49,247 nt of DNA from an uncultured Alphaproteobacteria bacterium. GTDB taxonomy: Bacteria; Pseudomonadota; Alphaproteobacteria; UBA7985. The position numbers were made by a program, and so were the translations under genes. Under the pieces are notes generated by a model. It worked only from the letters and a program-made list of their open reading frames with translations, was not told the DNA's origin and did not search any database. Location of the stretch: assembly GCA_905479265.1 (NCBI GenBank), contig CAJQLX010000009.1:64564-113810 (forward strand), read 5' to 3'. Of this stretch, positions 15,755 to 17,681 are shown in pieces; position 1 is the first letter of the stretch, and every line of letters begins with the position of its first letter.

Positions 15755-15773
15755 CAGCCAATTGGAGAGAGGC

Positions 15774-17249
15774 TTAGAAGGACAGCGTCGCGCCGACCTT
15801 GCCACCTTCGTCAGCAGCGTCGTAGCCAGCGTAAATGCTCAGGCCACCCATGGACTTAGACAGACCAACAGTAGGCTGCATGTCCTGGTCAACACCCAAG
15901 GACAGACCGAAGCCGTTCAAGGACGTGGACGCACCAACAGAGTAGAACAGGCCGTTCTTCTCATGATCTTCGGTCGCCTTGTTGTAGATGGTTGCATCTA
16001 CGCCAAAGCCAGCGATACCCATGGAAGCGCTCATGCCCCAATCGTTCTGGCTGTCGTAAGCGAAGGCAACAGACATGTCGCCCATAGCGTAGTCGAGACC
16101 AAGGTCCCAAGACGCGATGTCTACGACGTTGCTGGAGTTCAGCATCACGTCAACAGAAGCGGAAAGACCGCCCATGTCGATTGTACCACCGGTCAGGATC
16201 TCAAGGTTAGACGGCGCCGAAGCTGGAGCCAAATCAACCGCTACGAAAGGATTCGCACCCAAGAGGCCTACGCCTTCAACGATAACAGCCAAGCCGTCAA
16301 CGTCGAGGTCAGCAGCATCACCAGCGTCACCAATCGCGGAAACACCACCAGCGTAATCGCCGGTCTGCAGTGTCAGCTTACCGAAACCACCTTCGATGAA
16401 GATCGAAGCGTCAGACGCGGTAACAATCTTAGAAGCGTTGTTCAGGAAGAAGTTGGTCGAAGACGCAGCGACACCTTCAACACAAGCAGCACCTACAACC
16501 ATCTTTGTGGAAGAAGAACGCAGCATTACGGACATGAATGGACCAGCGTAAACGTCACCAGTCAATGCAGCAACGGTACCCGTGCCGTCAAAGTCAACAC
16601 CAGACGCTGTTACAACAGCACCACCAGCGGTCAGCGTAGCCGTGCCACCGGTTACGTGACCAGCAGGCAGGTAACCCGTTGCAGCGAGAGTAGCTGTGTC
16701 GGTTGTGTTAGCAACACCACCAGCGGTCTGGCGCGTCACGGTGAAAGCGGCTGCGGTAGCGCGGCCAGCAACTTTACATACGGTGGAAGCCGCAGCTGGA
16801 CCGACAGGGAGGCCGTAACCGGTGACGGTTGCGCCAACAGACTGCCAAGAGGAGTTGATCTTAACGCCAACGATGTCTTCAGCAGCGATCGCCTGGCCAC
16901 CAGATACATTGTATACAGCAGCTTCAATGTCTGTTGCGCCGGAAACCGTCATCTTAACGAGGTTCTTTGCGCCAGCAGCATCAAGGTATGCGCTAACTTC
17001 AACTTCAGTAGCGGTACCAAGTGTGAAGGAACCACCGTACTTCATGCCAGCGTCCGTGGTGCCAGCAGCTGCGATGCTCAGGGAGATGCTGTTGTAAGCT
17101 TCACCAATGCCGAGGTCGCTTTTATTCTTACCAACGCCGAATTCGACGCCCATGTCGATGGAACCGCCGAGGGTTACGTCTACTGCGCCAGCGGAGCCAG
17201 CAGCAGCTACTGCTGCGAGGCTAGAGCCTGCAATCAGGAACTTTTTCAT
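15774..17249 (-). CDS. Outer-membrane porin 1
   Basis: 491 residues from ATG 17249, with GGAG and GAGA just upstream. The signal peptide ends near residue 22 (GSAGA, mature VDVTLGG). The mature part opens with LGGSIDMGVEFG and ends in GATLSF; the final phenylalanine is the usual BAM recognition residue. Alternating beta-strands fit a trimeric alphaproteobacterial porin. Two cysteines, C158 and C256, flank a Thr/Ala/Gly-rich stretch of 97 residues; porins rarely contain cysteine. The paralogue at 32122-33735 keeps both cysteines. The gene is followed by a terminator and preceded by a structured leader. Confidence 0.85.
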   Translation of the reverse strand: MKKFLIAGSSLAAVAAAGSAGAVDVTLGGSIDMGVEFGVGKNKSDLGIGEAYNSISLSIAAAGTTDAGMKYGGSFTLGTATEVEVSAYLDAAGAKNLVKMTVSGATDIEAAVYNVSGGQAIAAEDIVGVKINSSWQSVGATVTGYGLPVGPAAASTVCKVAGRATAAAFTVTRQTAGGVANTTDTATLAATGYLPAGHVTGGTATLTAGGAVVTASGVDFDGTGTVAALTGDVYAGPFMSVMLRSSSTKMVVGAACVEGVAASSTNFFLNNASKIVTASDASIFIEGGFGKLTLQTGDYAGGVSAIGDAGDAADLDVDGLAVIVEGVGLLGANPFVAVDLAPASAPSNLEILTGGTIDMGGLSASVDVMLNSSNVVDIASWDLGLDYAMGDMSVAFAYDSQNDWGMSASMGIAGFGVDATIYNKATEDHEKNGLFYSVGASTSLNGFGLSLGVDQDMQPTVGLSKSMGGLSIYAGYDAADEGGKVGATLSF

Positions 17250-17681
17250 TTTTTCTCTTCTCCATATGAACCAACCGGACGCACATCCAGGTGGATTCAA
17301 CAATTTAGTTTTCGCCTCAGAAAGAGGACTTGTTCCCTCGCACAAGGGAAACTGCCCATACTCTCGCACAAGAGGTCCGGGCCGCTGCGTGCCTTCTATA
17401 TTGAAGAACACCACGACTGCTTATTGTTCCCCCCGAGCAAGAATGTCTTGAACAATATTCTCTATTTTTAGGATAGGTCGCGGATTGTTGCGCGAAAAAC
17501 ACGAATCTCTCAGGGTAACTTCTTGTTTTTAGGCCAACTTGGGACAAATCAGGCAGCCGTGTGGCCAAGCCCTTCCCCCGCTGGATCTCATGCGAATTTT
17601 AAGCAATTTTGAGTCGCTGTCGATATAACGGCACCTGACTTGCGAGTGTCACGCCAACACTTTTCACTTTTGGGGTTTCCC
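17250..17681. other. 432-base intergenic region between porin 1 and a divergent lipoprotein gene
   Basis: It holds the porin 1 leader with its three hairpins (17275-17374) and, further left to right, an AT-rich stretch around 17400-17530 that probably contains the porin promoter. The right end carries the ribosome site GGGG for the lipoprotein at 17682. No further gene was seen; open frames here lack ribosome sites. Confidence 0.6.
17275..17374 (-). promoter_or_regulatory. Porin 1 mRNA leader with three hairpins sharing one hexaloop
   Basis: Read as mRNA (minus strand) the leader forms three short stem-loops. Each has the loop TGTGCG but a different stem: CTCT/AGAG (17361-17374), TTCCCT/AGGGAA (17333-17350) and CTGGA/TCCGG with one G-U pair (17275-17290). 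The last ends 26 bases before the start codon. Identical loops on unlike stems suggest a repeated RNA recognition site for a small RNA or protein. I cannot place the porin promoter with confidence. Confidence 0.55.

Follow-up and report, generated by a model that had tools for sequence, protein, structure and literature searches.

A putative porin mRNA leader with three hairpins presenting a common loop in an uncultured marine alphaproteobacterial lineage

The window, by which we mean the whole stretch of 49,247 nucleotides of DNA analysed here, carries on its minus strand a porin gene (15774..17249), an open reading frame of 491 amino acids that begins with an ATG at 17249 and encodes a signal peptide and a C-terminal Phe. 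A sequence-only reading of this DNA had already called the gene a porin, and the name is borne out, since its syntenic orthologues in two genomes of the genus, G003 and G004, which are 74% and 47% identical to the window porin, match the Pfam family PF13609 (Porin_4) above the curated cut-off; the Pfam search with the window protein itself gave no match. The gene order typA, small lipoprotein-like gene, porin and secA is conserved across the genus, wherever the contigs permit it to be followed. On the plus strand, an open frame of 569 amino acids (15762-17471) lies antisense to the entire porin gene and its leader, and is probably a by-product of codon bias.

The region of interest lies approximately 19 to 125 nt upstream of the porin frame. 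Here, TGTGCG occurs three times on the minus strand within a span of approximately 100 nt, and its pairing arms are exactly those that the sequence-only reading had given. Namely, hairpin A (17361..17374) reads CUCU-UGUGCG-AGAG, with its loop at 17365-17370, while hairpin B (17333..17350) reads UUCCCU-UGUGCG-AGGGAA, with its loop at 17339-17344. Hairpin C (17268..17298, loop 17280-17285) reads GAA-U-CCA-C-CUGGA-UGUGCG-UCCGG-U-UGG-UUC; its inner stem CUGGA/UCCGG includes one U-G pair and continues via CCA/UGG and GAA/UUC to the outer ends of the feature. Between B and C there is a 20-nt stretch, GAGGCGAAAACUAAAUUGUU (17299..17318, minus strand), which is mostly single-stranded and is preceded on the side of B by a short hairpin, CCUC-UUUCU-GAGG (17315..17327, minus strand). 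Just downstream of C comes the Shine-Dalgarno region, GGAGAAGAG (17255..17263, minus strand), to which the predicted leader fold assigns no pairing. The whole conserved element, as delimited by our covariance model R2, spans 17255..17379 on the minus strand. When the whole leader is folded with RNAfold, all three hairpins are formed, and a U-G pair is drawn that closes the hexaloop and leaves GUGC as a tetraloop. Taken in its entirety, the leader folds no more stably than shuffled sequences do (z -0.35), and the case presented here therefore rests on repetition and covariation and not on stability.

As for repetition, the window has fewer TGTGCG sites than expected (26 versus 46.9), and a stem of at least 4 pairs around a 6-nt loop is found at 2.3% of all positions. 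A set of three hairpins that share a hexaloop and lie within 110 nt occurs only once on both strands of the 49 kb, in the porin leader, and no such triple appeared in 60 dinucleotide shuffles of the whole window.

As for covariation, six genomes of the genus were compared, and the syntenic porin leader is readable in three of them: G000, which is the genome of the window, G003 (also L031; MAG MED834, a 'Rhodospirillaceae bacterium' record) and G004. The contigs of G001 and G002 stop within the porin gene, leaving the leader outside the comparison. In G005, neither porin nor leader stands between the lipoprotein-like gene and secA, both having been either lost or never inserted; on its contig C26 (L117:6773-7006) the lipoprotein-like gene directly adjoins secA. 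Hairpins A, B and C are retained, in the same order, in all three readable leaders. In particular, hairpin A reads ACCUCU-UGUGCG-AGAGGU in G003 and UCUUCU-UUUGCG-AGAAGA in G004, and hairpin B reads CCUUCCCU-UGUGCG-AGGGGGGG in G003 and CCUCU-UGUGCG-AGAGG in G004, while hairpin C of G004 has a stem that runs without a break for at least 12 bp, the loop UGUGUG and a folding z of -6.7. Each of the three loops is UGUGCG in both G000 and G003, so that the exact motif is present in seven of the nine hairpins; the consensus is U[G/U]UG[C/U]G, with U1, U3, G4 and G6 invariant. The 20-nt stretch and the Shine-Dalgarno region are identical in the three leaders, the surroundings of the former differ, and the short hairpin next to it is mostly kept (92% of cells paired).

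The stems behave differently from the loop. Two-sided changes that keep the pairing are seen at six base pairs among the three leaders, and hairpin C has them at three pairs; the alignment of these leaders has pairing in 94% of its cells, versus 41-63% if the partners are slid. If all nine hairpins are aligned on the loop, two-sided changes are found at every one of the six stem positions, and 16 cells carry such changes as compared with 6.0 +/- 2.1 after shuffling (none of the 500 shuffles reaches 16). Because duplication and common descent link the nine hairpins, these counts should not be taken as probabilities. Even so, they point clearly one way: the loop keeps its sequence, and the stem keeps only its pairing. 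What is maintained is a property of RNA or of a single strand, and not of a duplex-DNA operator, in which the arms would be kept. The sequence-only reading had proposed a selected loop on unlike stems and had named the lack of loop and stems in related species as evidence to the contrary. No such lack was found, as the two orthologues with a readable leader keep both; the stems covary and the loop is retained, but it is not strictly invariant, given UUUGCG and UGUGUG in G004.

Upstream of hairpin A, conservation falls in G004, while the short blocks CGTGTTTTT and CAAGAC persist and may be part of the promoter. A simple scan gave no good sigma-70 site just upstream of the leader, the sigma-70 consensus being a weak guide in alphaproteobacteria. 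Reading the leader as coding for a short peptide was considered and dropped, as the frame is not conserved.

How widely is this element distributed? The covariance model R2 has convincing matches only in G000, G003 and G004 (E 3e-33 to 6e-29), with nothing else convincing in the genus or in 11 genomes of the order, and a search of 385 genomes of the class under stricter filters gave no convincing match. Weak matches in G003 (contig C117, E 0.55), G005 (contig C28, E 0.78) and G307 (E 0.004) are unconvincing given the number of genomes searched, and those in G005 and G307 lack the hairpins on inspection. No leader of this type was found in viral contigs, and an exact match to the 18-nt core of the invariant stretch, GGCGAAAACTAAATTGTT, occurs nowhere else in the six genomes compared. 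The window and the leader had no match in Rfam 15 at the gathering threshold, nor did the leader at E up to 1, in keeping with the sequence-only reading, which knew of no described family with this loop; a literature search for a UGUGCG loop found nothing relevant. The genome has many porin paralogues, and the same leader stands before none of those read; one paralogue leader (L039) has TGTGCG within a larger hairpin of different form. A contig of G003 that also bears a porin paralogue contains two overlapping terminator-like hairpins with the common loop ATTTTTC (L049:355-395).

Within G000, nearly all TTGTGCGA/ATGTGCGT sites were examined in a genome-wide scan for same-loop hairpins that covered two closing pairs, T-A and A-T. 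Outside the porin leader, the number of hairpins of at least 4 pairs is close to the chance expectation; L081 and L076, both among the strongest of the TTGTGCGA type, lie inside genes, and no other leader with UGUGCG hairpins was recognised among the scanned sites. Since convincing matches are limited to three leaders and hairpins with the same loop are elsewhere about as frequent as expected by chance, the leader is, on this evidence, neither a dispersed repeat nor the mark of a regulon in its exact form. As a separate observation, contig C14 of G000 has a glycine riboswitch (RF00504, 65 bits; L136:1190-1298, minus strand) upstream of a D-amino-acid dehydrogenase-like gene, and approximately 200 nt upstream of the riboswitch lies a lone TGTGCG hairpin of 8 pairs with a wobble-rich stem, which is probably due to chance.

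The RNA element itself is well supported by the hairpins, their repetition, the compensatory changes in the stems, the retention of the loop and the link to the porin. What is more, it shows what is generally expected of a cis-regulatory mRNA leader, namely a structure that is conserved ahead of orthologous genes and whose pairs change in a compensatory way. From here, we infer transcription through the element, the existence of a trans-acting factor and a control of the porin in one direction or the other. Our preferred reading, to which we give about an even chance, is that of a structured RNA leader acting in cis as a multivalent site for a trans-factor that recognises the loop. Namely, the three hairpins would display the common loop and flank the invariant, mostly single-stranded stretch, with hairpin C set directly upstream of an open Shine-Dalgarno region. 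A trans-factor, be it a protein or an Hfq-dependent sRNA, would read the loop whatever the sequence of the stem, would bind two or three of the hairpins cooperatively, and would thereby alter the translation or the decay of the porin mRNA. The invariant stretch could provide a second contact, i.e. a site for Hfq or S1, an RNase E site or the seed target of an sRNA. A protein is slightly favoured over an antisense RNA as the trans-factor, because the loop tolerates the change of G2 to U, which mismatches a CGCACA seed. Such a factor would have few targets of exactly this kind, given that no other leader with UGUGCG hairpins was recognised in the genome. A stronger version, which we put forward only tentatively and would expect to fail sooner than to hold, is that U[G/U]UG[C/U]G is recognised specifically, and independently of the stem, by a bacterial RNA-binding regulator yet to be described, with three cooperative sites controlling the porin.

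Could the loops be read by an antisense RNA instead? Porins are classic targets of sRNAs, and many porin mRNAs are repressed by them. An Hfq-dependent sRNA might form kissing contacts with the UGUGCG loops, pair with the invariant stretch, or do both, and so repress the porin; in a variant of this explanation, a cis-antisense transcript of the region would itself bear three CGCACA loops. Hfq was found in all six genomes of the genus, the loops are accessible in the predicted folds, and the invariant stretch resembles a seed target. However, beyond the mismatch of the G004 loop UUUGCG, complements of the invariant stretch in G000 are not clearly more frequent than in the control (12 sites, including the cognate one, versus 10 for the reversed pattern), none of those away from the locus has CGCACA nearby, and the TTGTGCGA/ATGTGCGT sites outside long frames show no evident sRNA. 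The sequence-only reading had suggested looking for antisense partners with CGCACA, and this check, run in the genome, brought up nothing beyond chance. We consider antisense control possible, if doubtful.

Another explanation is that the leader is passive, its hairpins serving as 5' stabilisers or spacers and its equal loops stemming from ancestral duplication together with suitability for folding. Hairpins close to the 5' end stabilise mRNAs, the 5' UTR of ompA being the model case (cited in PMC3997798). In addition, CYCUUGUGCGAGRG is common to hairpins A and B, which may have arisen by duplication, and the U-G pair with which RNAfold closes the loop would be in line with a purely structural role. 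That said, UGUGCG is, to our knowledge, not an extra-stable loop, and divergence has affected the stems and spared the loop, even in hairpin C, where the closing pair is inverted. A stabiliser requires no fixed loop, and as the fixed loop is thus left unexplained, we find a passive role unlikely.

Less probable by far is a DNA operator, in which repeats of the TTGTGCGA type would bind a transcription factor at the porin promoter, with transcription starting downstream of A and B. The A-B spacing (26 bp in two genomes and 24 bp in the third) and the nearly constant distance from B to the invariant stretch would fit such an arrangement, but an operator would be expected to show conserved arms around a free centre, whereas the porin leader keeps an asymmetric centre between arms that vary in complementary fashion. 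Moreover, the Shine-Dalgarno region follows closely on hairpin C, and no conserved -35/-10 pair is evident from B to the start codon. Finally, that the hairpins arose by chance is hardly credible: the unexceptional stability of the whole leader would agree with it, but the solitary triple speaks against it and the two-sided changes, which recur in two orthologues, contradict it.

Returning to the preferred reading, the porin leader looks like a real and undescribed control element. The post-transcriptional control of porins is mainly known from enterobacteria and a few model alphaproteobacteria, and a leader in which one loop is present in triplicate under selection, coming from an uncultured marine lineage, would make a compact bait for an RNA-binding protein or an sRNA. 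Other known cases of selection that fixes loops and leaves stems free are the sRNAs whose loops are anti-Shine-Dalgarno sequences and the RNAs of the Csr/Rsm systems. Two further resemblances were set aside: a possible mimicry of the anticodon arm of tRNA-His by hairpin C, the anticodon-like bases of which are not kept in the G004 loops, and a possible complementarity of CUUGUGCG to a stretch of 16S rRNA.

Three known systems invite closer comparison. The ompA 5' UTR likewise heads the mRNA of an outer membrane protein and combines hairpins with a single-stranded stretch, but we know of no repeated identical loop described for ompA, and this is the very feature of the porin leader. The targets of CsrA/RsmE and the RsmZ-type sponges consist of repeated hairpins with the loop motif GGA, bound cooperatively by the protein. 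The porin leader resembles them in repeating a short loop motif on several hairpins, to which a protein could bind cooperatively, and differs in the motif itself, as its loops are UGUGCG, UUUGCG and UGUGUG; the GGA of hairpin C sits in the stem, reads GAA in G004, and is absent from the whole of hairpin C there. A search for csrA (PF02599) gave no match in G000 (96% complete), G001, G002, G004 or G005. One CsrA gene is found in the genus, in G003 (L166, contig C9:11-172), at the edge of a contig that may be misbinned. Control by CsrA is thus disfavoured, because the loops have no GGA and G000 has no csrA. Finally, SmelA075 and SmelA099 are families of trans-acting sRNAs of the Rhizobiales with three to four hairpins, CCUCCUCCC loops and diverged stems (PMC3927594). 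The porin leader, also alphaproteobacterial, likewise has a series of hairpins whose stems have diverged around a single loop motif, but those families are separate sRNAs with an anti-Shine-Dalgarno loop, CCUCCUCC, whereas the porin hairpins belong to an mRNA leader and their loop, with the consensus U[GU]UG[CU]G, has no such character. As these hairpins differ from SmelA075/SmelA099 in their loop and in belonging to the leader of an mRNA, we class the element as a repeated-loop regulatory RNA or structured mRNA leader of no named family.
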